From an uncultured Tateyamaria sp. (GTDB taxonomy: Bacteria > Pseudomonadota > Alphaproteobacteria > Rhodobacterales > Rhodobacteraceae): a stretch of DNA of 64,000 nt. Both the position numbers and the translations under genes were made by a program. The notes below the pieces were generated by a model. The model searched no databases and was not told the DNA's origin. It saw nothing but the letters and a program-made list of their open reading frames with translations. The stretch lies in contig NZ_CANNCF010000002.1 of assembly GCF_947503045.1 (NCBI RefSeq), forward strand, positions 310,001 to 374,000. The letters run 5' to 3'. Of the stretch, positions 27,722 to 39,785 are shown in pieces; the first letter of the stretch is position 1; the number at the start of each line of letters is the position of its first letter.

Positions 27722-28882
27722 TTACCCTGCTGCTTCTGTTCGCCTTCCATTGAGATAGTTGCTTCCGGTATCCCAATAAGACCCGCCAAAGAACGACTGA
27801 AACAGAGGAATGCAGGCGGCACCGACGGCACCGGCTTTGGGCCCCAAGGTTGATGAACGCACGTGGGCTGCGGTTAGTCCACGTGACGGGCCCTCAAGCG
27901 GTGTGGCGTTTATTTCGGCCACCAATGCTGCGTTGATCGCCATTGGAAGGCGTCCGCCAATGATGATGATTGATGGGTCGAAAAAGCCGGTGGTCACGCG
28001 CACAACGTGGCGCAACTGCTCGGCGGCGCGGGTGACCCATGGCTGGATCACGTCCTGCAGATCGTCGAATTTGTGGCTGATTTCATTGATATCACTGATG
28101 TTGGCATCCGATGCCTCCAAGTGGGACATCAAGTCCTGTGCGGTGGGTCGAGGTGCGCCGTAAGGAAAGAGCACGCCGGGAAGACAGGCGTTCCCGGTCT
28201 CGCCCCTGAACAGTTTGCCGTCGACAACCGCGCCACCACCAAGCCCATAGCCGATATGGACAAGAAACAACGATGCGCCGTCATCCGGTTGTCGGCCAAA
28301 AACATGCTCGCCAAGGGCCGCCGCTGACCCGTCATTCTCCAAAAAGAACGCACCGTCGATGCGGGCACCGAAAGCCGCAACTTTCTTGGGATCATCGAAG
28401 TCCTGAAACAATTGATGCGCCCTGATGGTGGTGCCTGCGGGTCCAAAGTTGCCGGGGGCGGAGCAGCCCGTGCCCATGAAACAGTCGTCATCGATCTGGA
28501 TTGTCCGCCGCATGGCGGCGATTTCCTCTTGCGTTTTTTCTGCAATTTGTTCCGTGGACAGGCCAAGAATATTGACGGTCTTGCTGTCCCTGATCGCCCC
28601 CGAAAAGTCGATGATCGCCACGTCCATTTCACTGAGCGAAAAGGTGACGCCCGCGGCAAAGAAACGCTGTGCATTCACGCTGAGGATTTTTTTGGGTTGG
28701 CCGGATTCCCCTTTGTGATCAGTCTTTTCAGAGAAAACCCCCAGTTCCAGCAGCCCCGCAACCAGCCGCGTGATGCTGGCCCCGGTCATGCCGGATCGCT
28801 TGGCCAGATCAACGCGCGCCAGACCGGGATTTGCGACAACCAACTCAACAAGGCGACGTTCATTCAGGGATAGCGGCTTCAT
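27722..28882 (-). CDS. ROK family transcriptional regulator
   Basis: A 386-residue repressor-type ROK protein. The N-terminal winged helix is ERRLVELVVANPGLARVDLAKRSGMTGASITRLVAGLLELGV, followed by a sugar-kinase-like effector domain (GYGLGGGAVVDGKLFRGETGNA, then SIIIIGGRLP). The CxCGxxGCxE zinc motif of classical ROK proteins is missing, so ligand handling differs. It is divergent from the transporter operon, and the operator at 28931-28953 lies between. A near-identical operator precedes the Na/Pi cotransporter genes 7.3 kb away, so both are probable targets. The ligand is presumably a sugar or sugar phosphate. Confidence 0.9.
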   Translation of the reverse strand: MKPLSLNERRLVELVVANPGLARVDLAKRSGMTGASITRLVAGLLELGVFSEKTDHKGESGQPKKILSVNAQRFFAAGVTFSLSEMDVAIIDFSGAIRDSKTVNILGLSTEQIAEKTQEEIAAMRRTIQIDDDCFMGTGCSAPGNFGPAGTTIRAHQLFQDFDDPKKVAAFGARIDGAFFLENDGSAAALGEHVFGRQPDDGASLFLVHIGYGLGGGAVVDGKLFRGETGNACLPGVLFPYGAPRPTAQDLMSHLEASDANISDINEISHKFDDLQDVIQPWVTRAAEQLRHVVRVTTGFFDPSIIIIGGRLPMAINAALVAEINATPLEGPSRGLTAAHVRSSTLGPKAGAVGAACIPLFQSFFGGSYWDTGSNYLNGRRTEAAG

Positions 28883-28930
28883 GGTATTTCCAGACAGGGG
28901 TTTGACAGGGTGGACCTAATACGCAATATA

Positions 28931-28953
28931 TAAATTACGCAATGTAATTTAAT
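28931..28953. promoter_or_regulatory. Candidate ROK operator 1
   Basis: AAATTAC - 5 bases - GTAATTT is a perfect 7-base palindrome extended by TA and AA at the edges. It lies 49 bases from the ROK start and 73 bases before the binding-protein start. It matches operator 2 at 36241-36263 in 20 of 23 positions. A partial half-copy (ACGCAATATA) directly precedes it. Confidence 0.75.
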
Positions 28954-29025
28954 TGTCATGCTGGAGGTTTATGACGACAGGGCGTGTAACGTGGACTGAG
29001 ATCGTCCGCTCCAAGGGAGAGAGAT

Positions 29026-30021
29026 ATGACTAAGGTATTTTCACTGGCCGCTGCTTTGTTGGGCACGGTCAGTATGGCGCAGGCCGAGGCGCTCACCATT
29101 TATTCGCCACAGGGTGAGGACAATGTTGCATGGATCGAAGCGCAGGCTGAGGCCGCTGGGCATGATGTTGATTTCTTGCGCGCTGGGGGTGGCGAGCTGT
29201 TTTCACGTCTGGAAGCGGAGAAAAACAATCCTCAGGCGGATGTCGTTCTGGGGCTGAATGACATCGCGATGGCGCGGCTGAAGGCGCAGGGCATGTTCCA
29301 GGCGCATGTGCCGACCTGGGCCGATGGCCTGCCAGCGTCCTACAGTGATGCGGATGGCGTTGTGCACAAATTTTGGCAAACCCCGATTGTCATTGCCTAC
29401 AACCCTGACCGCATTGCAGCAGACGCGGCACCTTCAGGCTGGCTTGACCTGACAAAGGACGCCTATGCGCAAAACTACGTGCTGGGACCAACCAAGTGGG
29501 GCACAACGCAGGTCATTCTTGCGGGTATCCTTGTGCAATTCGCAGACGAAAACGGCACGGTCAGCGATGACGGCTGGGACTTTATGGCCGATCTATATGG
29601 CAACAGCGTCCTGGTCAGTTCGGGCGACGAAAAGATTGCGGCCCTGTCGAGCGGTGAGGCCGCGATTGACCTCAACTGGTTTGGCGGTGCGTTCCGGGAA
29701 GCGGGCAAATCAGGCTATGATCCTGTTCTGGTGAACCCCGAAAATGGGACGCCGATTGTCGCCGAAGGGATCGCGGTGATGGCAGGCACGGATCAGGCCG
29801 ACGCCGCCAAAGCCTTTGTCGACTGGTTTGGGTCGGTCGAGGTGATGGCTGCCTATGCGACCGAGTTTGGCCAAATGCCATCCCATCCCGATGCGATTGC
29901 CGCAGCCCCGGCTGAAGTGCAGGCGAAGGCACAGCTTGTTTCGGCGCAGGCGATTGACTGGGATCTTGTCGCCGCCAACCTTGATGGATGGCTCCAAAAG
30001 ATTGAACTTGAAATCAAGTAG
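29026..30021 (+). CDS. ABC transporter periplasmic binding protein (FbpA/AfuA-like), possible organophosphate binder
   Basis: A 331-residue exported binding protein. The signal peptide is TKVFSLAAALLGTVSMAQAEA, and GGGELFSRLEAEKNNPQADVVLG is typical of the iron/AEP/hexose-phosphate binding-protein class. The paired tyrosines that ligate iron in FbpA are absent: the corresponding stretch reads AIDLNWFGGAFREAG. An iron function is therefore unlikely. Relatives bind phosphorylated sugars (AfuA) or 2-aminoethylphosphonate. It is the first gene of the operon and has a strong GGGAGAGAG site before the ATG. Co-location with a monophosphatase and a phosphate transporter supports an organophosphate ligand (inference). 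Confidence 0.85.
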   Translation: MTKVFSLAAALLGTVSMAQAEALTIYSPQGEDNVAWIEAQAEAAGHDVDFLRAGGGELFSRLEAEKNNPQADVVLGLNDIAMARLKAQGMFQAHVPTWADGLPASYSDADGVVHKFWQTPIVIAYNPDRIAADAAPSGWLDLTKDAYAQNYVLGPTKWGTTQVILAGILVQFADENGTVSDDGWDFMADLYGNSVLVSSGDEKIAALSSGEAAIDLNWFGGAFREAGKSGYDPVLVNPENGTPIVAEGIAVMAGTDQADAAKAFVDWFGSVEVMAAYATEFGQMPSHPDAIAAAPAEVQAKAQLVSAQAIDWDLVAANLDGWLQKIELEIK

Positions 30022-30101
30022 GCGCTCCTCCGGCTTGCTTGGGGCGGCCGGTGCATGCTGGCCGTCCTGCCCTGTTATTCCAAGAACTGAACGCCATATT
30101 T

Positions 30102-31112
30102 ATGCAAGATCCCGTTCTTTCCATCAAAAACCTGGACATTGCATATGGCGCGGTGACAGTCGTTCATGACTTTTCTCTGGATGTGGCGGCGGGTGAGTTC
30201 GTCTCGCTTTTGGGCCCGTCGGGGTGTGGGAAGACGACCATTCTGCGCACGATTGCCGGGTTCATTGGTGCCGCATCCGGCAGCATCACGCTGGAAGGGC
30301 AGGACATCACCCGCAAACCTGCAGAGCAACGGGATGTGGGGATCGTCTTTCAGAACTACGCCTTGTTTCCGACGATGAGTGCGTTTGAAAACATCGCCTT
30401 TGGTCTGCGCGTGGCCAAACGCCCCATGGCTGAAATCACGCAGCGTGTGACGGATATTGCCCGTGCCAGTGGCATAGAGGAACAGTTGCACAAACGCCCG
30501 TCGGATATGTCAGGCGGCCAACAGCAGCGCGTCGCGATTGCGCGGGCCCTGATCACGGGGGCCAAGGTTTTGCTGTTTGATGAGCCTCTGTCCAATCTGG
30601 ATTCCAAAGTCCGCGTTGCCATGCGCCGCGAAATCAAACGCCTGCAGGCAGAGTTTGGATTTACCGCGTTTTTTGTCACCCATGACCAGGATGAGGCCCT
30701 GTCGATGTCAGACCGGGTGATCGTGCTGAAGGATGGCCACACCCAGCAAATAGGCACCGGGCGGGTGTTGTATGAGCAGCCGCAAAACGCCTTTGTGTGC
30801 AAATTCATCGGCGATGCAAATGCGTTGACTGCCGGCTTGGCCAAAGCGCTGACGGGACAGGTGCGCGACGGGACCGTTTTTGTGCGCCCCGAAAACACTC
30901 TGATGAACGCGGGCCATGCTGGTGTGCCAGCCTGCGTCACGCATATCGAATACCTGGGGGCGCAGGTGCGTGTTGAATGCCAAGTGGGTGCAGAGACAGT
31001 GTTGGCCACGATGTATGGGTTTGAGTGCCCGCCAGACCTGTCGGTGGGCCAGGATGTGTCGCTGAGCGTGCGGCCCGGTGCATGGCACATCTTCCCGGAC
31101 ACTCCGTCGTGA
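30102..31112 (+). CDS. ABC transporter ATP-binding protein of the same importer
   Basis: A 336-residue ATPase from the ATG at 30102 (MQDPVLSIKNLDIAYG). Walker A is GPSGCGKTT, the Q-loop is VFQNYALFPTMS, the signature is MSGGQQQRVAIARAL, Walker B is LLFDEPLSNLD and the H-loop is VTHDQDEAL. The C-terminal 100 residues form a TOBE-type domain (VFVRPENTLM, VTHIEYLGAQVRVECQ). This architecture is shared by FbpC/AfuC and PotA/MalK. The permease GTG overlaps its TGA. Confidence 0.93.
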   Translation: MQDPVLSIKNLDIAYGAVTVVHDFSLDVAAGEFVSLLGPSGCGKTTILRTIAGFIGAASGSITLEGQDITRKPAEQRDVGIVFQNYALFPTMSAFENIAFGLRVAKRPMAEITQRVTDIARASGIEEQLHKRPSDMSGGQQQRVAIARALITGAKVLLFDEPLSNLDSKVRVAMRREIKRLQAEFGFTAFFVTHDQDEALSMSDRVIVLKDGHTQQIGTGRVLYEQPQNAFVCKFIGDANALTAGLAKALTGQVRDGTVFVRPENTLMNAGHAGVPACVTHIEYLGAQVRVECQVGAETVLATMYGFECPPDLSVGQDVSLSVRPGAWHIFPDTPS

Positions 31113-32818
31113 GGGGCACCTTTCGCCTTGAACAGATGGCGTTTCTGACCGCGCTTGGACTGCTTGCGTGGTTCCTGGTCACGTTTCTGATCATGCCGTT
31201 GATCACGACGTTCTACACGGCATTCTTTGACAGTGGCAGCCTGCGGATCGGTGAAATCACCGAGGATCTATCGCGGTCGCGCCGGGTCAAGCAGGCCTTG
31301 CTCAACACGGCCTGGATGACGATTGCGACCACCTTTACCGTGGGGCTTGTTGGCATTTTCCAGGTCGCGGCGCTTGAGTATTTTCACGTCCGCGGCCGCA
31401 GTTTTCTGAAAGTTGCCTTTGCGGTGCCGCTGGTCTTTGGCAGTGTTGTGGCTGCGACAGGGTACAAATTCACCTATGGTCCGTCGGGCATTGTGACCCA
31501 GATTTTACAGGGGATCGTACCTGATCTGCCATCCGATTGGTTTATCGGCGGGCATGGGGTGCTTTATTCGCAGACGTTCTTGCTGACGAGTTTTTACTAC
31601 CTGTTTCTGCGCGCCGCGATGCGCCGGGTGGATTATTCGACGGTGGAGGCCGCGCGCAGCATGGGGGCCTCTGAAATCCATATTCTGCGCCGCGTGGTCC
31701 TGCCCGTCATCATGCCAACGCTCTTTGCGGTGATGCTTTTGACGATCTACACCTCAACCGTGTCCTTTGCGGTGCCCGAGATTATCGGCGGGCGCGATTT
31801 TACGATGATCAGCCAAATCATTCTGGTGCTGAACGCGCTGAACCGGCCTGATATGGCGGCGTTTCTGGCGCTGTTCCTTGGGTTTTTCATCCTGTCGATC
31901 ATCGTCCTGATGCAGTGGATCGAGGCGCGCGGGTCCTATATTGGCGGTGCCAAAACGCCGGTGCCGATTGAGCTGAAGCGGATCAAAAACCCAGCCGCCA
32001 ATGTCGCATTCCACGGGGTGACCTATCTGCTGGCGTTCATCTATGTCCTGCCTGTTGCCTTGGTTGTCGCGTTTTCCTTTGCACCTGCGGCCAGCATCGG
32101 GACAGAGGTGTTTCCGTCCTCCTTTACCCTGTCCAACTACATCCGCGTTCTGTCTGGTGGGGCCGCGTTCGAACCGTTCTTTAACTCGATGCGCATGGGG
32201 CTTTTGGCGGTTCTGTTGGGTCTGTCGGCCACATTGTTTGCCGTACCGATCATGGTGAAACACAAGAATTGGATGACGCGGGCATTGGACATCGGGTTTT
32301 TCCTGCCATGGGTTGTGCCGTCCGTGCTGTTGGCAATCGGTCTGATCCTGACCTTTGACACGCCCAACCTGATGGTGGGTCGCGCGGTGTTGCTGGGGTC
32401 GTTCATCATTCTGCCAATCGGCTATGCGATCAACGCGCTGCCCTTGATGGTGCGTTTCTTGCGCGCGGCCTTCATGGGGATCGATCCAAGTTATGACGAG
32501 GCCGCGCGGTCGATGGGCGCCGGGGGGCTTTACCGGTTTCGCCGCGTGACGATGCCACTGGTGGCACCCACTGCGCTGTTGGCCGGGGGCTATACATTCA
32601 ACGAAATGCTGACCGAATATCCGCTGTCCGCTTTCCTTTACAACGTGAACAACCGTCCTTTGTCGATTGCAATCCTTGACAGCGACAAATCCACTGACCC
32701 CGAACAAGCCGCGATCACGCTGGTCTACGCCGTCCTTGTCATGGCGTTTTCGCTGGTTGTGGTCCTGTCCGCCGAACGTTTGAGCCTTGGAAAAGGCCCC
32801 AAAACCAACAACGTATAA
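31109..32818 (+). CDS. ABC transporter permease, two fused membrane domains (FbpB/AfuB-like)
   Basis: A 569-residue inner-membrane protein containing two permease units. Each has an EAA loop: EAARSMGASEIHILRRVVLP near residue 180 and EAARSMGAGGLYRFRRVTMP near residue 465. The fused form is characteristic of the iron/hexose-phosphate/AEP transporter branch. I take the GTG at 31109, which overlaps the ATPase stop as GTGA; an ATG at 31136 is the alternative. About twelve hydrophobic segments are visible. The isomerase gene follows after 10 bases. Confidence 0.92.
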   Translation: MRGTFRLEQMAFLTALGLLAWFLVTFLIMPLITTFYTAFFDSGSLRIGEITEDLSRSRRVKQALLNTAWMTIATTFTVGLVGIFQVAALEYFHVRGRSFLKVAFAVPLVFGSVVAATGYKFTYGPSGIVTQILQGIVPDLPSDWFIGGHGVLYSQTFLLTSFYYLFLRAAMRRVDYSTVEAARSMGASEIHILRRVVLPVIMPTLFAVMLLTIYTSTVSFAVPEIIGGRDFTMISQIILVLNALNRPDMAAFLALFLGFFILSIIVLMQWIEARGSYIGGAKTPVPIELKRIKNPAANVAFHGVTYLLAFIYVLPVALVVAFSFAPAASIGTEVFPSSFTLSNYIRVLSGGAAFEPFFNSMRMGLLAVLLGLSATLFAVPIMVKHKNWMTRALDIGFFLPWVVPSVLLAIGLILTFDTPNLMVGRAVLLGSFIILPIGYAINALPLMVRFLRAAFMGIDPSYDEAARSMGAGGLYRFRRVTMPLVAPTALLAGGYTFNEMLTEYPLSAFLYNVNNRPLSIAILDSDKSTDPEQAAITLVYAVLVMAFSLVVVLSAERLSLGKGPKTNNV

Positions 32819-32828
32819 GGAATATCCC

Positions 32829-33737
32829 ATGGAGACCTGCATCACCGTCTGGCACTGGCCAAACCACGACCGCTGGTATGACGAGGGTCTCAAGGAAACG
32901 CTGCGCCTGATCAAAAAGGCAGGGTTCACGCATATCAACTGGAACCCGGATTCAGGGAGCTCCTATTGGTACGCGGCGTCCGAGATCGGGTTCATCCGGG
33001 ACACGATCAACAGCTTTGATCTCAAGGTGAAGACGATCCATGCCTCAAACGGATTGAACCCGGTGACCGAAAAGACGTTCCTGGCCCGGGAAACGCGCAA
33101 AGACATCCATTCTCCCAACGCCTGGCAACGTGAGGCCGGGGCCGAGCTGCTCAGGAACCGGGTGGATCTGGCGGCGGCACTCGGGTCTCCGGACATGGTG
33201 CTGCACATTGAGGTCCGCGATGAGTATCACGAGAGTGCAGCGGCCGCCGAGGCATTCTATACCCCACTGTTTCAGACACTGGATTCCGTGCGGCCTTATT
33301 GTCTGGAACATGGGATCAAGATCGCGGTTGAGAACCTGTTCAGTGCCTCGGCCAAAACGTATCTGCAGATGTTCGACCGTGTCTTCAGCCGTTACGACGC
33401 CGATTTCATCGGGTTGTGCTATGACACCGGCCATTGGGAAATCACGCAACCCGGCGGCATCAGCGTGCTGGATCAGTTTGGCGACCGGCTGATCTGTACC
33501 CACATCCATGACAATTTCAGCGCCTGTGACGATCATTTGCTGCCCTTTGACGGGCGGATCAACTGGGATCTGGTGACCAAAGGGATTGCGGCCACGGCCT
33601 ATGAAACCCCCGTGAATTTTGAAACGGAATACGACCGCTACGGTCTGCGCCCTTCCAGCTTTTACGAACGCGCCCATGCGACGGCTGTGCGGATCGAGAC
33701 GATGATCCAGGCGGCACGCAGCGGGAACGCTTTATGA
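32829..33737 (+). CDS. Sugar phosphate isomerase/epimerase family protein (TIM barrel)
   Basis: A 302-residue xylose-isomerase-like TIM-barrel protein. The metal-binding ladder is visible: Glu in KIAVENLFS, Asp/His in LCYDTGHWE, His in THIHDNFS and Glu in VNFETEYD. The ATG at 32829 has AAGGA upstream. The substrate cannot be read from the sequence; members isomerise or epimerise keto-sugars, inosose or sugar phosphates. It overlaps the monophosphatase gene by ATGA and so probably acts on the imported substrate before or after dephosphorylation. Confidence 0.88.
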   Translation: METCITVWHWPNHDRWYDEGLKETLRLIKKAGFTHINWNPDSGSSYWYAASEIGFIRDTINSFDLKVKTIHASNGLNPVTEKTFLARETRKDIHSPNAWQREAGAELLRNRVDLAAALGSPDMVLHIEVRDEYHESAAAAEAFYTPLFQTLDSVRPYCLEHGIKIAVENLFSASAKTYLQMFDRVFSRYDADFIGLCYDTGHWEITQPGGISVLDQFGDRLICTHIHDNFSACDDHLLPFDGRINWDLVTKGIAATAYETPVNFETEYDRYGLRPSSFYERAHATAVRIETMIQAARSGNAL

Positions 33738-34477
33738 CAGACCTGCAAGGTCGATTTGACCTGATGGAGCGTATCTCTGCCGCCCTGAGCGCGTTCACTT
33801 TGGATTGGTTTCACCGTCTGGGCGAGGTGCAGGTCGAGGAAAAGGGCCACGCGGACTATGTCAGCCGTATTGATCGCGAGGCCGAAGCGCTCGCGCGGGA
33901 TATCATCGCCAATGCCTTTCCCGGTGATCAGATCGTGGGCGAAGAACAGGGCGGGTCGGCAGCCAATGATTGCTGGGTGATCGACCCCATTGATGGCACC
34001 GCCAACTACCTGAGCGGCCTGCCGATCTGGGCGGTGTCGATTGCCTATCTTCAAGGTGGAAAGCCCGTGATCGGCATCATCGCCATGCCTGCGATTGGCT
34101 TTGTCGTGAGCGGCGGGACAGAGTTTGACCTGCGCGTCGACGGGACGCTGCCACCGATCACCAATACCGCGCCAGTGGTCTTTGGCGTGGGGCGGAACCC
34201 GGTCTGGAGTGCGGCGGACCGTATGGCCTGTGAAAGCGGGCTAGAGGCCAAAGGGTACAACATCGTCTCCGTGGGCAGCTGCGCGTCTGCCCTGGCCATG
34301 GTCGCCGCGGGCCGGCTGGTCGGATATGTCGAACACAATATCAAGCTGTGGGATTGTGCGGCAGGCGCGGTTCTGTGCCGTGTGGCTGGATTGGCATCCC
34401 AGATCCACCCTTGCGGCGCTGACTTTGACGTCCATATCAAGGCAGGCCCGGCGGCCATTCTGTCACAACTGGATTAG
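33734..34477 (+). CDS. Inositol monophosphatase family protein
   Basis: A 247-residue member of the Mg-dependent, lithium-sensitive phosphatase family. GEE is at residues 69-71, DPIDGTANY at 84-92 and WDCAAG at 206-211, so all metal and phosphate ligands of the family are present. It would release phosphate from an inositol, histidinol, fructose bisphosphate or other sugar phosphate. As the last gene of an importer operon it suggests that the substrate enters still phosphorylated. The last 41 bases overlap the convergent Na/Pi cotransporter gene. Confidence 0.92.
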   Translation: MTDLQGRFDLMERISAALSAFTLDWFHRLGEVQVEEKGHADYVSRIDREAEALARDIIANAFPGDQIVGEEQGGSAANDCWVIDPIDGTANYLSGLPIWAVSIAYLQGGKPVIGIIAMPAIGFVVSGGTEFDLRVDGTLPPITNTAPVVFGVGRNPVWSAADRMACESGLEAKGYNIVSVGSCASALAMVAAGRLVGYVEHNIKLWDCAAGAVLCRVAGLASQIHPCGADFDVHIKAGPAAILSQLD

Positions 34478-36119
34478 GCCTTTTCGCAGGCCGCCACTTT
34501 GTTCTGGGCTGTTCGCCAGCTGCCCTCAGCACCAGATAGGCTGTCGTCGTCAAATGCCCGTTGATCCGACGCAGGGCGTGTACCACGTCAAGGTGGATAT
34601 CGCTGCTTTCGAGACTGTCGCCGACGCCCGCGCCAAGCCTGTCGATATGGGCTGTGATAGAGCTTTGCTCGCTCTCGCGCACCCGCGCCTTGGAATCGTA
34701 AAGCTGGCGGGCAAGGTCCGGGTCGTAGGTCAAAAACGCAGTCACGCACAGATCGAAATTGATGCACGTCAGCGCATGGAGAGCTTCGATTTCAGCCAGA
34801 CCTTGGGTGGAAAAGGCGATGTGCCGCGCGGTTTTTTGCCGCGCGAGGTCCATGAGATCACCGGCCACGATGTCGCCGATATGCTCCATGCTGGCAGTGA
34901 AGCTGAGGATATCCTGCGCTTTTTGGCTTTGCGCATTTGTCAGCGGGCACTGGATCGTTTGCGCAAGGTACATCTTGATCGCTTCAAACAGCGTATCAAG
35001 CCCGTCTTCTTTTTGGGCGGTCGTGCTGGCGACCTCGGGATCAGTGTCACGCAGCATCGGCAGGGCGTCCGTGACCATACGTTGCGCGATATTGGCCATG
35101 CTTATGGCTTCGCGTTTGGCCTGGGCCAGGGCTTGGATCGGGGTGTCCTGCAATTGCGGGTCGAGAAATTGCGGCCGTAAATCTGTGTCGATTGAGGTGT
35201 CGCGGGGCACAATGCGTCCGGCGAGACCAAGCCACAGGCCCGGCGCGGCAACCCCGACACTGGCAATGCCGAGATTGAGGGCAAAGTGCGCGGCGACAGG
35301 CACATAGGCATCGGTCATCCAATGACCCAACTGCAGAGCCATAATTGGCGCGCAGGCAAAGACCACGGCGATCCCGGCAAGCCGCAGGATCAGGTTCGCA
35401 ACCACCGGCAATTTCGCATCCCGCACTGCGCGGAAATTGGCGATGACGGGCAAGGCGGCGCCCCCGGCATTTGCGCCCAGCATCAGGTAGATCCCGTGTT
35501 CTGCCGTGATCAGACCTGCGGCGATGAACCCGGCCGTCAGCAAAACAACGGCAAGGCTGGAATGTGCGGCCATCGCCGTCGTGGCGCCAAGGACCGCGAT
35601 CAACAGCGGGTATTGGGTAGAAACATTCAGCACGACAACAAAATCAGGCTGCGCACCCATCCGTGCCGAGACCGCGCCAATCAGCCCAAGCCCGAGCAGG
35701 ACCAGACCGAGCCCCACAATGGCCTTGGTCACGCCGACGGCGCGCGGTTGCTGCGCCAATTGCCCGCCAAAGTACCCGCAGGCCAGCAGGAACGGCGCCA
35801 TAAACGTCAATTTTTGCGAGGCGAGCGCTGCGGCGATTGCGGTGCCGACATCCGCGCCAAGGATTGTGACAAAGGCGGTTGCGGTGCTCATCACGCCCTG
35901 GGACGCAAAGCCTGCCGTGATCATCGCGGTTGCGGTGCTGCTTTGCAAAAGCACTGCCGCGATCAGGCCAGCGACAAAGGCAGGCCCGACGCGTCCCTCG
36001 GTCCGCCGAGACATGATTTTCAACTCAGTCCCATATGCGCGCATCATGCCGTTTCGGACCTGACGCAACCCGAACAGCAAAAGCGCGATGGCACCCAAAA
36101 GCTCTGTCAGCGCGATCAT
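34437..36119 (-). CDS. Na/Pi cotransporter family protein with PhoU-like domain
   Basis: A 560-residue protein. The first 310 residues are hydrophobic and hold the two inverted motif repeats of type II Na/Pi cotransporters, LLQSSTATAMI near residue 60 and AAHSSLAVVLL near 190. Residues about 330-540 form a PhoU-like helical domain (MEHIGDIVAGDLMDLARQK). Bacterial members move phosphate with sodium and some work in export. It is convergent with the transporter/phosphatase operon and carries its own copy of the ROK-type operator upstream, so it seems to be controlled together with it. Phosphate release after intracellular dephosphorylation is the inferred role. Confidence 0.9.
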   Translation of the reverse strand: MIALTELLGAIALLLFGLRQVRNGMMRAYGTELKIMSRRTEGRVGPAFVAGLIAAVLLQSSTATAMITAGFASQGVMSTATAFVTILGADVGTAIAAALASQKLTFMAPFLLACGYFGGQLAQQPRAVGVTKAIVGLGLVLLGLGLIGAVSARMGAQPDFVVVLNVSTQYPLLIAVLGATTAMAAHSSLAVVLLTAGFIAAGLITAEHGIYLMLGANAGGAALPVIANFRAVRDAKLPVVANLILRLAGIAVVFACAPIMALQLGHWMTDAYVPVAAHFALNLGIASVGVAAPGLWLGLAGRIVPRDTSIDTDLRPQFLDPQLQDTPIQALAQAKREAISMANIAQRMVTDALPMLRDTDPEVASTTAQKEDGLDTLFEAIKMYLAQTIQCPLTNAQSQKAQDILSFTASMEHIGDIVAGDLMDLARQKTARHIAFSTQGLAEIEALHALTCINFDLCVTAFLTYDPDLARQLYDSKARVRESEQSSITAHIDRLGAGVGDSLESSDIHLDVVHALRRINGHLTTTAYLVLRAAGEQPRTKWRPAKRPNPVVTEWPPGLP

Positions 36120-36238
36120 TGCGCAAGTGCTTCACGGATCATGCTGGCGGCGCGGGCATTGCGATCCATCGGGTCAAGGATTGTCTCAATGCCCAACGCT
36201 CTGAGCGTCGGAAACTTTGCCTCGCTCACCTCAATCAC
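36116..36238 (-). CDS. Small ORF coupled to the Na/Pi cotransporter
   Basis: A 40-residue reading frame starting GTG at 36238, 3 bases after operator 2: VIEVSEAKFPTLRALGIETI, then LDPMDRNARAASMIREALAQ. Its TGA overlaps the cotransporter ATG (ATGA), so the two are translationally coupled. The second in-frame GTG, at the fourth codon, has GAG upstream and could be used instead. It has no hydrophobic segment. I do not recognise it; it may be a real small protein or the C-terminal stump of a lost gene. Confidence 0.5.
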   Translation of the reverse strand: MIEVSEAKFPTLRALGIETILDPMDRNARAASMIREALAQ

Positions 36239-36240
36239 CC

Positions 36241-36263
36241 TAAATTACACAGTGTAACTTAAT
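36241..36263. promoter_or_regulatory. Candidate ROK operator 2
   Basis: AAATTAC - 5 bases - GTAACTT with the same flanks as operator 1; 20 of 23 positions are identical. It lies just before the small ORF and the Na/Pi cotransporter gene on the minus strand. This ties that transcription unit to the ROK-controlled importer operon at the other end of the locus. Confidence 0.72.
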
Positions 36264-36319: not shown

Positions 36320-37120
36320 CTAAAGTTCAAGCACCAGAGGACAGTGGTCAGAGACTTCGGGGTCATGGATCACATCAAAGCCGCGAACGGCCGCCTCGCT
36401 GTCGATCAGCATGTAATCCGCAAATTTACCGGGCTTTTTGTATTGCGCGTTGCGCGTGCTGTCGAAACCTCTTCCCGTCACAAGTTCCGTGAACCCCGCG
36501 TCGGCCAGTATCGCAAGCGTTTCGCTGGCGGGCTCCACGTTGAAATCCCCGCAAATCACACTCAGATCACCGGGCGCGGATACCTGTCGGGACAACTCAA
36601 GCAGCCTCTGGGCCTGATCGGCGCGCTCGGGTGTGTCCATTTTTCCGTCAAGGTCGCGCAGGCCGTGCACATGGGTGACGCTGACGGACCGATCCGCCGC
36701 ATAGTCATAGACGCGAACGCCGTGCGCACTGCGGGATCGTGGATGATCACCATAGCCGACGGGCGAGTAGTCTTTATGAACGAAACCCTGCACCTGCCCA
36801 ATGATCGGAAGCGCGCGATGCACGAATGTGGCAAGGCCCCATTGCGACGGGATTGACTGATCCCCGTCCCAAAGCACGCCCTGCGCCGCCGGACAGAACA
36901 CAGCCTGATGATCCGGCAAGGCATGGGACACATCCCGAAACAGGTTCGCTCTTTGGGCCAGAACATGATCCCCGTCCCGGTATGTCAGCCAGTCCTTTTC
37001 CGACGCGGGACTGTGAATGACTTCCTGAAGGCAGAGGATATCCGGGGCCGCGTTCGACAGGTACGGCAGCAGGTGTTGGTGGAGTTTTCCACCCCATCCA
37101 TTCAGGCACATGACTTTCAA
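36320..37120 (-). CDS. Endonuclease/exonuclease/phosphatase (EEP) family protein
   Basis: A 266-residue hydrolase of the EEP fold. CLNGWGGKLH carries the first Asn, DILCLQEVIHS the metal-binding Glu near residue 32, SVICGDFNVEP the Asp-Asn pair and VSDHCPLVLEL the C-terminal Asp-His. The family includes DNases, sphingomyelinases and inositol phosphatases. The start is a TTG at 37120 because relatives begin with M-x-x-M-CLNGWGG; an internal ATG three codons later is the alternative. It is on the same strand as the Na/Pi unit but ends 56 bases before operator 2, so membership in that locus is uncertain. Confidence 0.85.
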   Translation of the reverse strand: MKVMCLNGWGGKLHQHLLPYLSNAAPDILCLQEVIHSPASEKDWLTYRDGDHVLAQRANLFRDVSHALPDHQAVFCPAAQGVLWDGDQSIPSQWGLATFVHRALPIIGQVQGFVHKDYSPVGYGDHPRSRSAHGVRVYDYAADRSVSVTHVHGLRDLDGKMDTPERADQAQRLLELSRQVSAPGDLSVICGDFNVEPASETLAILADAGFTELVTGRGFDSTRNAQYKKPGKFADYMLIDSEAAVRGFDVIHDPEVSDHCPLVLEL

Positions 37121-37208
37121 AACATACCCCCCATCTTGCTGCTCACGCTTGCGTCGACAGTTGGAAAATGGACAGGATTCAACCGCACGGCCAGATCCAT
37201 TGGGTTGT

Positions 37209-38549
37209 TTATCGAGCGATCTGCGCCGGAATTGTGATCCTTACGGCAAGACCGCCGAGAACCGACGACTTTCCCAACATAAGGTTGGCGCCGTATGCCT
37301 TGAGCAAGTCAACGGAAATCGCGAGCCCCAGACCCGTACCCGGCGTCGACGTGTCCAGCCGCCCGCCCGAGCGAAGTGCCTCTCGCTTGGAGTTCTCGGG
37401 AATGCCGGGGCCGTCATCCTCGATCAGAAGCTCGATGCCGTCCTTGACCTTTCTGGCCGTCAAGTGGATCGTTTTCTTGCTCCATTTCAATGCATTATCC
37501 AGCAGGTTGCCAATGGCCTCCTCGATGTCCTGCGCATCCATACGCACCGACAGATCGTCCTCGTTCCTGATTTCGATCGCCTTGCCGTCGCGCTCGGCCA
37601 TCGACACGAACAGGCGCGACAACCGGTTGACGGAGTTGGAAAGGTCTGTGCGTGAATGCGTGAGTTCTGCAGAATTCGCGGCCCGCATGCGCGCCAGGGA
37701 ACGGCCAAGCTGTGCATCGATACGGTCCAGAGCCTCCTGCGCCTTTTCAATTGCCACGTCATCCTCGGACAACGCGGTCAGTTCGTTGCGCAGGATGGCC
37801 GTTGGTGTCTTGAGCGCATGGGCCAGATCTGCAGCCTGCCGACGGGCGCCCGACACGATGTCCCGATTGCGATGCAGCAAGACGTTGATGTCACCAACCA
37901 ATGGCGAGACCTCATCAGGGTATTCCTCCGGTTTCAGCTCGTCATCCTCATCCCAGCGCTGTGCCACGTCGGCGCGCAATTTACGCAAAGGCCCAAGAAC
38001 CGCGGACATGCTGAGGATGGACCCCGCCATGCCGATCACGCCCACCAGCGCAAAGGCCAAGAGCAGGCTGCGTCGGGTCTCGTTGCGGTCCTTGTTCAAC
38101 TCTGCGCGGCTTTCGGCGACGCTGATCCCCCATTCGGTCCCGTCCTCGTAGGTGATCTGCTGGTAGACGCTGCGGATGGCTTCGTTTTCGGGGCCAGTGG
38201 TGTTCCAAACGGTCATTCCGGAGTGTGAATCCGCGGGTTCGGTGAAGGTTTCGTCAAACAGGGACGCCGATGTGTAAATATCGCCATTGCTGTTTGTGAC
38301 CTGCCAGTATCGACCGGAATACGGGGTGCCATAGGCGGGGTCGAACATCAAATCCCGCAGCTTGTCAGGAGTCTGGGTCGCAACGCTCAGACCGACCACG
38401 AGCTGCGTGTGCCGATCCTGAAGCGTACTGTCGAACCGCTCAAGCGCCTTGGCATCGATGTAGGAATAGAGCGCCAGTGTGCCAACCGCGACAGACATGG
38501 CCCCCGAGGCGATCCCGCCCAGCAACGCACGATGCCGCAAAGACAGCAT
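37209..38549 (-). CDS. Sensor histidine kinase (PhoQ-like layout)
   Basis: A 446-residue membrane sensor. It has a first membrane segment near residues 10-30, a periplasmic domain to about 160, a second segment (SLLLAFALVGVIGMAGSILSM), then HAMP. The H-box DLAHALKTPTAILRNE holds the phospho-accepting His, and the ATPase domain has NLLDNALKWS, DDGPGIPE and GTGLGLAIS. Its ATG overlaps the response-regulator TGA. With the PepSY protein and regulator it forms a three-gene operon. The stimulus is unknown. Confidence 0.94.
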   Translation of the reverse strand: MLSLRHRALLGGIASGAMSVAVGTLALYSYIDAKALERFDSTLQDRHTQLVVGLSVATQTPDKLRDLMFDPAYGTPYSGRYWQVTNSNGDIYTSASLFDETFTEPADSHSGMTVWNTTGPENEAIRSVYQQITYEDGTEWGISVAESRAELNKDRNETRRSLLLAFALVGVIGMAGSILSMSAVLGPLRKLRADVAQRWDEDDELKPEEYPDEVSPLVGDINVLLHRNRDIVSGARRQAADLAHALKTPTAILRNELTALSEDDVAIEKAQEALDRIDAQLGRSLARMRAANSAELTHSRTDLSNSVNRLSRLFVSMAERDGKAIEIRNEDDLSVRMDAQDIEEAIGNLLDNALKWSKKTIHLTARKVKDGIELLIEDDGPGIPENSKREALRSGGRLDTSTPGTGLGLAISVDLLKAYGANLMLGKSSVLGGLAVRITIPAQIAR

Positions 38550-39211
38550 CAGGCCGCAGCGTCGATCATGTACCCGCGCCCACGCACCGTGGTGATCAGG
38601 TCAGGCCCAAGTTTTTTCCGCAACCGCGTGATGAACACGGCGATCGTGTTCGAATCCCGGTCACCATCGTATTCATAGATGTGTTCCGACAGTTCGGTGC
38701 GCGATATCATGCGCCCCGTATTGTGGAACAGATAAGTCAAAACTGCGATTTCCTGGGCCGTCAGATCGACAGGAATTCCGTCCGTCGTTACCCGCCCGTT
38801 GCGCGTGTCGAAGTGGACATTTCCCAGTTCAAACACGGGTTTCACATGGCCACTTTGACGCCGCAGCATCGCGCGCACGCGCGCGGCCAGTTCCGGCATG
38901 TGGAAGGGCTTTGTCATATAGTCGTCGGCACCGGCGTCCAGACCATCGACGCGTTCGCTCCAGCCATCGCGCGCTGTCAGGATCAGAACCGGGGTCGCAA
39001 TGCCCTCTTTGCGCCAATCGCGCAGGACAGAGATACCATCGCGTTCAGGCAGACCAATATCCAGTATGATCATGTCGTAGGGTTCGGTTGACCCCATGAA
39101 ATGCGCTTCGACGCCGTCATTGACAACGTCAACGACACGCCCCTCGGCGACCAGCAACCGCTTGATCTGCGCGCACAACTGCGGCTCATCTTCTGCCAAC
39201 AAAACTCTCAT
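38549..39211 (-). CDS. OmpR/PhoP-family response regulator
   Basis: A 220-residue regulator from the ATG at 39211. The receiver domain contains LLAEDEPQL (acidic pocket), IILDIGLPERDG (phospho-Asp near residue 51) and the conserved Lys in MTKPFHMPEL. The C-terminal winged helix ends with ISRTELSEHIYEYDGDRDSNTIAVFITRLRKKLG and VRGRGYMID. Longer upstream reading would translate the Gly-rich repeat antisense and is rejected. A probable target is the divergent Gly-Asn-rich gene pair around it. Confidence 0.95.
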   Translation of the reverse strand: MRVLLAEDEPQLCAQIKRLLVAEGRVVDVVNDGVEAHFMGSTEPYDMIILDIGLPERDGISVLRDWRKEGIATPVLILTARDGWSERVDGLDAGADDYMTKPFHMPELAARVRAMLRRQSGHVKPVFELGNVHFDTRNGRVTTDGIPVDLTAQEIAVLTYLFHNTGRMISRTELSEHIYEYDGDRDSNTIAVFITRLRKKLGPDLITTVRGRGYMIDAAA

Positions 39212-39254
39212 GGAATTTTGGTTAACCGAAAAATTTGGAGTTTTTGTGGCAAGA

Positions 39255-39785
<531 letters not shown>

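Follow-up and report, generated by a model that had tools for sequence, protein, structure and literature searches.

The locus described here occupies positions 27,722 to 36,263 of a 64,000-nucleotide stretch of DNA from an uncultured Tateyamaria sp. (the window, meaning the whole stretch that was analysed). It raises the question whether a ROK-type repressor, an ABC importer, a TIM-barrel protein, a phosphatase and a Na/Pi cotransporter form one system that imports a phosphorylated sugar or polyol, dephosphorylates it and lets the phosphate out again, as a first-pass annotation had proposed.

Gene content and organization of the locus

The gene content given in that annotation (ROK, importer genes, TIM barrel, intact IMPase-like gene, Na/Pi-PhoU) holds: all seven genes have frames open throughout, and each matches the expected family. 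The features are as follows.

27722..28882, minus strand: ROK-family repressor (Pfam ROK 59.3 bits, cutoff 22.9), divergent from the importer operon
28930..28952: predicted operator O1, ATAAATTACGCAATGTAATTTAA, a 23-bp palindrome in the ROK-SBP gap
29026..30021, plus strand: periplasmic binding protein (SBP), FbpA/AfuA/PhnS2 superfamily
30102..31112, plus strand: ABC ATPase with TOBE_2 domain (ATG at 30102; start in the open reading frame list 30039)
31109..32818, plus strand: fused two-domain ABC permease (two BPD_transp_1 stretches; PhnU2-like, below cutoff)
32829..33737, plus strand: AP_endonuc_2 TIM barrel (nine endonuclease IV metal-ligand positions present)
33734..34477, plus strand: Inositol_P, inositol-monophosphatase (IMPase)-family phosphatase (GEE, DPIDGT and WDCAAG motifs)
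34437..36119, minus strand: Na_Pi_cotrans with PhoU-like C-terminal domain (Na/Pi), convergent with the operon
36119..36238, minus strand: Zn-alcohol dehydrogenase remnant, interior part, about 40 codons, between O2 and Na/Pi
36240..36262: predicted operator O2, CTAAATTACACAGTGTAACTTAA, a 23-bp palindrome upstream of Na/Pi

The three motifs of the phosphatase are presumably those characteristic of the IMPase family. As for the claim that the genes lie together, the importer, TIM-barrel and IMPase genes do lie in one operon, but the Na/Pi gene stands outside it: it is on the opposite strand and converges on the operon, the two 3' ends overlapping by 41 bp, and is therefore not an operon member. 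The stretch delimited in the first-pass annotation ends at 36263, coinciding with the second palindrome copy (36240-36262), which was not named there.

A palindrome common to both promoters

A tie between the Na/Pi gene and the importer operon is supported by a ROK-type palindrome that their promoter sequences share. With up to two mismatches, its 13-base core TTACRCARTGTAA is matched five times in the window against 1.24 expected, and none of 100 shuffles reaches five; in the whole assembly the exact core occurs at O1 and O2 only, and allowing one mismatch removes its specificity (4 rows versus 12 for the reversed control pattern). When the long arms pattern TTAAATTRCNNNNTGTAATTTAA is searched at up to three mismatches, O1 and O2 are the sole sites in the 4.74-Mb window genome, and control hits number 0 across all 15 genomes examined. 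An asymmetric long pattern adds a third site with 3 mismatches on contig 9 of the window genome, and gives one control hit there and 0-3 across 16 genomes. Because similarity between O2 and the O1 region is confined to 34 bp, O2 is not a duplicated promoter block. The palindrome is found upstream of the SBP gene in all 13 complete loci among those fetched, and the ROK protein would be expected to bind at both O1 and O2.

The Na/Pi gene and its orthologue in a second genome

The window Na/Pi protein contains two Na_Pi_cotrans stretches and a PhoU domain, and passes the curated cutoff of NF037997 (Na/Pi symporter; 92.1 vs 50 bits). It is 50% identical over 526 residues to a palindrome-linked copy (L086) in G186, the closest carrier of the cassette that was found. 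Among 394 genomes of the family (E<=1e-60) only G186 has such a relative, the next best match being 37%; among 385 genomes of the class (E<=1e-95) no match other than the protein itself exceeds 39%. The matches in 15 congeners are never above 33%, which rules out a housekeeping gene, and an accessory gene is supported.

In G186 the orthologue lies with sugar dehydrogenase genes behind a palindrome of this kind, on a contig other than that of the cassette, and as G186 is a metagenome bin the pairing of the two contigs rests on binning. The arms pattern has two sites in G186, one at the cassette and one, with a differing centre, between divergent operons, where it separates a split dehydratase-AKR-lactonase operon from an ADH-SDR-Na/Pi operon; the asymmetric pattern adds a third site (2 mismatches, contig 4). 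Dehydrogenase genes are part of the Na/Pi operon of G186, and in the window a fragment of a dehydrogenase gene remains between O2 and Na/Pi. Aligned with the L086 dehydrogenase, the remnant has a raw BLOSUM62 score of 56, a value reached in 0 of 2000 shuffles (maximum 38), with an E of just 0.05 by tblastn; against the window genome's own dehydrogenase the score is 55. The proposal that the Na/Pi gene belongs with the importer locus thus receives independent support from the shared palindrome and the palindrome-linked orthologue.

An L-fucose-type pathway, considered as proof of the sugar, was demoted to a hint: because AKR homologues turn up commonly, in 15 of 20 genomes from the genus and in 20 of 41 overall, its presence says little, and the L-fucose-type genes of the window genome lie elsewhere (contig 5), away from the palindrome, the 19 kb retrieved there containing no lactonase match.

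Distribution of the cassette

Without Na/Pi, the cassette recurs in 13 of the 15 fetched related loci. In all 13 complete fetched loci the ROK homologue and the SBP gene are divergently oriented; the two adjoin in 12 and lie ~3.6 kb apart in L058. Of 14 complete cassettes (a count that leaves out L049, with the TIM barrel only, and L061, a partial cassette), 12 have a phosphatase gene after the importer genes, the version in L057 being a distant family member (28%), and two (L056, L059) have no neighbouring IMPase. TIM barrels at 54% or above are present in 4 of 394 family genomes, including both genomes with Na/Pi (window, G186). The gene set is accessory; no published account of the cassette was found in the open-licence literature.

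Regular co-occurrence of the Na/Pi gene with the operon, a check that the first-pass annotation had set for itself, was not found: none of the 15 fetched related loci has the gene in its flanks, and it accompanies the cassette in the window genome and G186 only, the rhizobial carriers having been examined at the fetched loci. By that test the gene is therefore not part of the general system, and the phosphate exit looks like a lineage-specific addition.

Comparison with plasmid-borne systems

According to the first-pass annotation, no described system was known to have this composition; however, in the agrocinopine acc/arc regulon of pTiC58 (Agrobacterium fabrum C58) a single repressor governs an importer, a phosphodiesterase, an IMPase and a Na/Pi protein. 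It consists of two divergent transcripts with an ABC importer for a sugar phosphodiester, the phosphodiesterase AccF, the IMPase-family AccG and a Na/Pi gene located where the arc operon lies. The protein families are different: the repressor AccR is of the DeoR/FucR type whereas that of the window is ROK, the importer (AccA-E) is oligopeptide-type whereas that of the window is SBP_bac/PhnS2-type, and AccF is a GDPD, of which there is none among the window genes, the AP-endonuclease TIM barrel being found instead; acc/arc also carries traR and sucrose phosphorylase. AccG and the pTi Na/Pi protein are 31% and 33% identical to the respective window proteins, AccA and AccR have no match among the window proteins by BLAST (E 1e-3), and the pTi Na/Pi is nearer to at least 12 other Na/Pi loci compared than to the window Na/Pi. 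The shared O1/O2 palindrome would fit a single-repressor layout like that of acc/arc, and the window set may represent a convergent, agrocinopine-like working assembled from different families. Beside the accNaPi-like gene of the one family genome looked at (G217, L161), no phosphatase was seen by eye.

The symbiotic plasmid pNGR234a carries a cluster, to which we take the y4f gene names to apply, with ROK, SBP, ATPase, permease, TIM-barrel and IMPase genes in the same order and with the same palindrome, followed, unlike in the window, by a helix-turn-helix regulator and a porin. The 28.7 kb fetched have no gene annotated as Na/Pi, the 6 records that the window Na/Pi matches at 1e-60 do not include pNGR234a, and a literature search by gene name found no paper on the cluster. 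A GDPD gene was also tried as a regulon member in Ensifer/Sinorhizobium; this candidate was strong at first and was then weakened, as the palindrome near the GDPD of L087 lies within 204 bp that share 69% identity with the cassette SBP promoter and gene start, probably a decayed cassette copy. No palindrome lies within reach of the L052 GDPD.

Proposed mechanism

With the gene content, the shared near-exclusive palindrome, the co-occurrence in G186 and the dehydrogenase remnant established by sequence, we favor, with some reserve, an accessory regulon that serves the catabolism of a sugar or polyol bearing phosphate and includes a phosphate exit. Both the divergent importer operon, through O1, and the Na/Pi transcript, through O2, would be under the control of the ROK repressor, whose release is presumably triggered by a sugar or a sugar phosphate. 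The ABC transporter with its binding protein would bring in an organophosphate, the substrate presumably entering in phosphorylated form. The TIM barrel, as a metal phosphoesterase, would open a phosphodiester, or alternatively would isomerise or epimerise a sugar, and with the subsequent action of the IMPase-family phosphatase free sugar and phosphate would result; we infer this order of steps, as well as the nature of the substrate. The sugar would be oxidised, in G186 by L-fucose-type genes that likewise stand behind such a palindrome, and surplus phosphate would leave through the Na/Pi-PhoU protein. This outward direction is suggested by analogy with YjbB, which PMC11389368 reports to promote phosphate export. 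YjbB-type Na/Pi-PhoU transporters likewise have two Na_Pi_cotrans stretches and a PhoU domain; unlike them, the window protein is encoded behind a putative ROK-type operator and falls in its own sub-branch, common only to G186 in the genomes searched.

Alternative interpretations

A phosphomonoester (hexose or polyol phosphate) might be imported instead, with the TIM barrel a true isomerase or epimerase acting before the phosphatase and no diester step. The protein is a TIM barrel, as first annotated, and its nearest solved folds by Foldseek are sugar epimerases (L-ribulose/D-tagatose 3-epimerases) and UlaE, endonuclease IV not being among the 50 matches listed; Pfam gives AP_endonuc_2, with weak IolE/FrlC/IolO matches. 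However, the isomerase assignment is called into question by H71, H126, E168, D199, H202, H225, D234, H236 and E265, which stand at what we take to be the metal-ligand positions of endonuclease IV and which are invariant in 15 of 15 aligned TIM barrels (alignments omit L051, whose barrel is identical to that of L050), whereas the aligned epimerase YcjR lacks counterparts of H71, H126, D234 and H236. The best NCBIfam match is the phosphodiesterase CbiR, below cutoff, and a 56% homologue occurs in Ti-plasmid PEP-mutase/CDP-alcohol-transferase clusters in which no phosphatase is annotated. The window barrel has its fold in common with endonuclease IV, CbiR, MJ1311 and the sugar 3-epimerases; its distance from CbiR (41 vs 105 bits) and from Nfo (hhalign probability 1.3%; 7 of 9 ligands aligned, H71 and H126 placed by eye) is too great for assignment. 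Since the nine positions are kept, a phosphoesterase appears as likely as an isomerase, and import of a monoester with no diester step is possible but not probable.

Somewhat unlikely as well is import of a phosphonate or a phosphate-free solute, in which case the phosphatase would act on a side product and Na/Pi would be co-regulated for another role, e.g. phosphate import or sensing. This would fit the TIM homologue in the pTi PEP-mutase clusters and the 2-aminoethylphosphonate models PhnS2/U2/T2, which are best for SBP and permease and second best for the ATPase. All three score far below the curated NCBIfam cutoffs (TIGR03261/03265/03262: 96 vs 393, 331 vs 458 and 127 vs 593 bits), however, and, unlike in AepXVW/PhnS2T2U2 systems, no phosphonatase gene was seen in the window set, and the genes identified in the cassette and in the G186 regulon include none for phosphonate cleavage, while an IMPase-family gene is present in most complete cassettes. 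Phosphate release during growth has been reported for AEP users.

Hexose-phosphate import by analogy with AfuABC is not supported either. The window SBP belongs to the same superfamily as AfuA and retains, as T160, the position of the phosphate residue T150, but the positions of S37, H205, D206 and E229 are not conserved, the last three aligning with G220, G221 and V245 (ligand residues as named in PMC4546632; the AfuA chain numbering was taken as the numbering there plus 2, which gives the right letter at all five residues). Because the sugar-ring residues H205, D206 and E229 are missing, hexose phosphate cannot be inferred from AfuABC. The word 'phosphatase' is absent from the main text of the AfuABC paper.

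That the Na/Pi gene is a chance neighbor of unrelated function is very improbable: its convergent orientation, its absence from the fetched flanks and the shortness of the signals (a gap fragment of 39 codons and a palindrome) would agree with this, but the near-exclusive palindrome at both promoters, the G186 orthologue, the unduplicated O2 and the dehydrogenase remnant behind it argue against it. Ferric iron import, prompted by the FbpABC-type annotation, by HitA/FutA/FbpA iron-binding proteins among the top folds for the SBP and by the public label 'iron ABC transporter permease' on the pNGR234a permease, can be dismissed, since the adjacent tyrosines that bind iron in FbpA-type proteins (FbpA/FutA) align with W218-F219 of the window SBP and the pair occurs in 0 of 13 aligned SBPs (L062 has a single tyrosine); iron binding, named at the outset as a finding that would speak against the proposal, is thus not predicted from the sequence.

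Implications

The favored accessory regulon for a phosphate-bearing sugar or polyol can be set, more tentatively, in a wider frame. A mobile system under ROK control might be common to Rhodobacteraceae and rhizobial plasmids; its substrate would be an opine-like phosphodiester or a sugar phosphate not described before, and a new sugar phosphodiesterase of the AP-endonuclease type would open it. One lineage might independently have recruited a dedicated phosphate exit and so converged on the agrocinopine design, in which phosphate is given away and the compound is a carbon source. If true, this would be a second, independently assembled case in which organophosphate import and a Na/Pi gene come under one repressor, and Na/Pi-PhoU proteins in catabolic regulons may mark carbon-driven organophosphate use that returns phosphate to the environment. 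The reading also offers a testable function, both for a cassette of symbiotic plasmids (pNGR234a and many Rhizobium plasmids) that is uncharacterised and for a TIM-barrel family whose only annotation is 'sugar phosphate isomerase/epimerase'. A cross-genome palindrome search, as used here, can connect distant genes to one pathway.

Organization of the locus

The window genome (4.74 Mb in 28 contigs, 98% complete; the window is G000:C2:310001-374000) carries the ROK gene, the importer, the TIM barrel, the phosphatase and the Na/Pi cotransporter gene together at one locus, as the first-pass annotation had observed.

Features of the locus (window coordinates, strand, description)
28882-27722, minus: ROK repressor gene, divergent from the five-gene operon
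28930-28952: palindrome O1, ATAAATTACGCAATGTAATTTAA, in the gap between the ROK and binding-protein (SBP) genes
29026-34477, plus: tight five-gene operon (binding protein, ATPase, fused permease, AP_endonuc_2 TIM barrel, Inositol_P phosphatase)
36119-34437, minus: Na/Pi-PhoU gene, facing the operon
36119-36238, minus: open stretch of ~40 codons, interior fragment of a Zn-alcohol dehydrogenase, between O2 and Na/Pi
36240-36262: palindrome O2, CTAAATTACACAGTGTAACTTAA, upstream of the Na/Pi gene

The 3' end of the Na/Pi-PhoU gene overlaps the phosphatase gene by 41 bp. G+C is 57-58% at 28-34 kb versus 62-66% in the first 18 kb of the window, and is likewise low (58-59%) at 36-44 kb; the low value at 28-34 kb fits acquisition and is no proof of it. 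Reading towards O2 and Na/Pi on the minus strand (36320-39523) are an endonuclease/exonuclease/phosphatase-family gene, a histidine kinase gene and a response regulator gene.

The palindrome

The 13-base core TTACRCARTGTAA has two exact matches in the whole G000 assembly, namely O1 and O2. Allowing 1 mismatch brings the rows from the assembly to 4, through one extra place on contig 9 and through O2 being read a second time in reverse, versus 12 for the reversed control pattern, and so the core by itself lacks specificity. In G000 the arms pattern TTAAATTRCNNNNTGTAATTTAA, allowed up to 3 mismatches, picks out O1 and O2 and no other place, and its reversed control has no match in any of 15 genomes; an asymmetric 23-base pattern, with 0-3 control matches per genome, finds a third place in G000, on contig 9 at 3 mismatches. 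Outside the palindrome, similarity between the O1 and O2 regions is confined to 34 bp (82%); O2 is therefore no copy of a promoter block.

Distribution of the cassette

Within the window's genus (20 genomes including itself) the TIM-barrel orthologue occurs in the window genome only, two other congeners giving matches at E 1e-6 to 1e-8; among 394 family genomes a TIM barrel of at least 54% identity is found in four, the window genome, G186 (69%), G055 (56%) and G115 (54%). Scanning of genome contigs with four TIM sequences as queries yielded 15 loci, 13 of which hold the ROK, SBP, ATPase, permease and TIM-barrel genes; of the other two, L049 has only the TIM barrel, and the set in L061 is broken. 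Loci L048, L056 and L057 correspond to G186, G055 and G115. The ROK gene adjoins the SBP gene in 12 of these 13 and lies ~3.6 kb away in L058, and a recognisable palindrome stands upstream of the SBP gene in all 13, the weakest being that of L057, which departs from the core at 1 base and from the long form at 4. With the window there are 14 complete cassettes; an IMPase-family gene comes next in 12 of them (the L057 copy being only 28% identical) and is absent after the cassette in L056 and L059. In the plasmid collection the TIM barrel is present at E 1e-20 in 84 records, all from Rhizobium, Sinorhizobium, Agrobacterium or Neorhizobium and 68 of them predicted conjugative. Plasmid pNGR234a bears the entire cassette adjoining an annotated E3 ubiquitin-protein ligase gene, which we take to be NopM.

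Several neighbourhoods have features of their own. In R. beringeri (L131) the neighbours of the cassette are a second ROK gene, a sugar ABC importer and an N-acetylglucosamine kinase-type gene, and those in N. galegae (L164) look the same by eye. On one contig of Ensifer sp. BR816 (G434; L058, L088) the palindrome occurs four times, and a second ROK gene is present; two of the four copies lie within blocks that match the cassette promoter region at 72-77% identity, evidently the result of repeated duplication. A GDPD-like gene with a signal-like N-terminus (L050:16144-17274, L058:13041-14171, L087:1191-2321) has a palindrome 260-760 bp away, which may be a mere cassette remnant; near the fourth copy of the gene, in L052, there is no palindrome.

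The Na/Pi gene and the regulon

The expectation that Na/Pi regularly accompanies the importer cassette failed in the neighbourhood search: a tblastn search with the window Na/Pi gave no match in the flanks of the 15 loci (up to 10 kb, less at contig ends). In the 394-genome family search 74 genomes match at E 1e-60, and neither G055 nor G115 is one of them; only 6 plasmid records match at 1e-60, the best at 37%. Neorhizobium galegae has a 35.5% Na/Pi ~56 kb from its cassette, and the 19.6 kb fetched around that gene contains no palindrome. Judged by these searches, Na/Pi is outside the general cassette and looks like a lineage-specific addition. A further Na/Pi gene, in Rhizobium sp. 32-5/1, stands after genes for glycine C-acetyltransferase and threonine dehydrogenase, and N. 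galegae has the same arrangement by eye; these stretches (L162:6668-10605 and L163:6665-10605) may represent a second kind of catabolic unit through which phosphate leaves.

The only near relative of the window Na/Pi among the 394 family genomes is that of G186 (50% identity over 526 residues; next best 37%); across 385 class genomes no copy other than that of the window is above 39%, and 15 congeners have only paralogues of 24-33%, in 4 genomes. Both genomes with this Na/Pi branch carry the cassette, for which the chance is ~0.8% (3 other cassette genomes among 393, genomes being treated as unrelated). The arms pattern finds two places in G186, one in the cassette gap and one at G186:C73:4165 (TTAAATTACCCATTGTAATTTAA), the latter differing from the cassette palindrome in its five central bases; the asymmetric pattern finds an additional site, with 2 mismatches, on contig 4. 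Because G186 is a metagenome bin, it is binning that unites its cassette contig with C73. The C73 palindrome stands between divergent operons, one with a split galactarate/altronate-type dehydratase, an aldo-keto reductase (AKR) and a fuconolactonase-like amidohydrolase (181 bits versus a cutoff of 400), the other with a Zn-alcohol dehydrogenase, an SDR dehydrogenase and the Na/Pi gene. The palindrome shared in G000 and the palindrome-linked copy in G186 support the place of Na/Pi better than the first-pass annotation knew, and the gene looks like a member of the ROK-cassette regulon.

The first 24 residues of the dehydrogenase remnant behind O2 resemble residues 189-212 of the 340-residue G186 dehydrogenase (raw score 56, reached by 0 of 2000 shuffles, maximum 38; tblastn E 0.05), and none of the other six proteins of the G186 stretch stands out against it; the remnant is about equally like the dehydrogenase on contig 5 of the window genome (score 55). 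The simplest reading would be that palindrome, dehydrogenase and Na/Pi formerly stood at the window site and that Na/Pi was retained. Contig 5 holds close homologues of the G186 dehydrogenase (56%), SDR (64%), AKR (55%) and both dehydratase parts (68% and 45%), adjoining genes that resemble a sugar ABC importer by eye, with no palindrome and, in the 19 kb fetched, no lactonase match. In G008, a congener of the window organism, a 2.2-kb piece (L159:9449-11642) is 98.5% identical to the G186 sugar-oxidation cluster and adjoins ORFs resembling, by eye, transposase and plasmid genes; the cluster thus seems to move between genera.

Binding protein and TIM barrel

The binding-protein model (pLDDT 90) has P5PA, HitA/FutA and AfuA as its closest folds. 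The FbpA/FutA tyrosine pair corresponds to W218-F219 and is absent from all 13 aligned binding proteins (L062 having a single tyrosine), so that iron is unlikely as the ligand. Of the AfuA residues named in PMC4546632 (S37, T150, H205, D206, E229), T150 alone is kept, as T160, invariant in the 13 binding proteins; S37, H205, D206 and E229 align with G55, G220, G221 and V245, and AfuA therefore gives no ground for taking a hexose phosphate as the ligand.

The TIM-barrel model (pLDDT 89) most resembles sugar 3-epimerases, which speaks for an epimerase, the main rival reading. Against it, H71, H126, E168, D199, H202, H225, D234, H236 and E265, which we take to be the positions of the nine endonuclease IV ligands, are invariant in 15 of 15 aligned TIM barrels, and the epimerase YcjR has no counterparts of H71, H126, D234 and H236. 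The residue letters were checked in Nfo; hhalign pairs the last seven positions with Nfo ligands at poor probability, and H71 and H126 were matched by eye. The best curated family, below cutoff, is the phosphodiesterase CbiR, and the nearest solved sequence is MJ1311, named uncharacterised, with later motifs alike. A phosphoesterase is favoured because of the invariant ligand positions, the four missing from YcjR and the CbiR match; the isomerase label given earlier is uncertain. A 56% homologue of the TIM barrel sits in a Ti-plasmid cluster (L049, A. vitis pTi; L130:2826-13949, A. tumefaciens Tul003 pTi) that also has PEP mutase, phosphocholine cytidylyltransferase-family, CDP-alcohol transferase, ornithine cyclodeaminase and cysteine synthase-family genes and may serve to make a phosphonate.

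Relation to the agrocinopine system

The agrocinopine locus of pTiC58 has on one strand accR, accA-E, accF (GDPD) and accG (IMPase family), names assigned here from gene order and product names, and on the divergent strand, in order, a small gene, a Na/Pi cotransporter gene, a sucrose phosphorylase gene, traR, a small gene and a chemoreceptor gene. According to passages of PMC5924552 and PMC3907764, AccR represses both acc and arc, and arc comprises five proteins with TraR fourth, which with this gene order places Na/Pi second in arc. AccF splits agrocinopine A into sucrose and arabinose-2-phosphate, with AccG as the putative phosphatase (PMC4526662); the literature passages on acc/arc give no account of the role of the Na/Pi gene. 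Control of an importer, a diesterase, an IMPase and Na/Pi by one repressor is thus already on record, and the composition, contrary to what had been supposed, is not undescribed. The parts differ: AccG and the pTiC58 Na/Pi are 31% and 33% identical to their window counterparts, and AccR and AccA have no match among window proteins at E 1e-3. By this comparison the predicted window regulon is convergent with acc/arc and built of different parts.

Phosphate release during life on organophosphorus compounds is already known: users of 2-aminoethylphosphonate export phosphate (PMC8316502, the main text of which lacks the words exporter and cotransporter), and Flavobacterium with PafA uses sugar phosphates as carbon source while phosphate builds up outside (PMC8812569). 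What is new is a putative ROK-controlled variant, convergent with acc/arc, of a kind of system already known from pTiC58.
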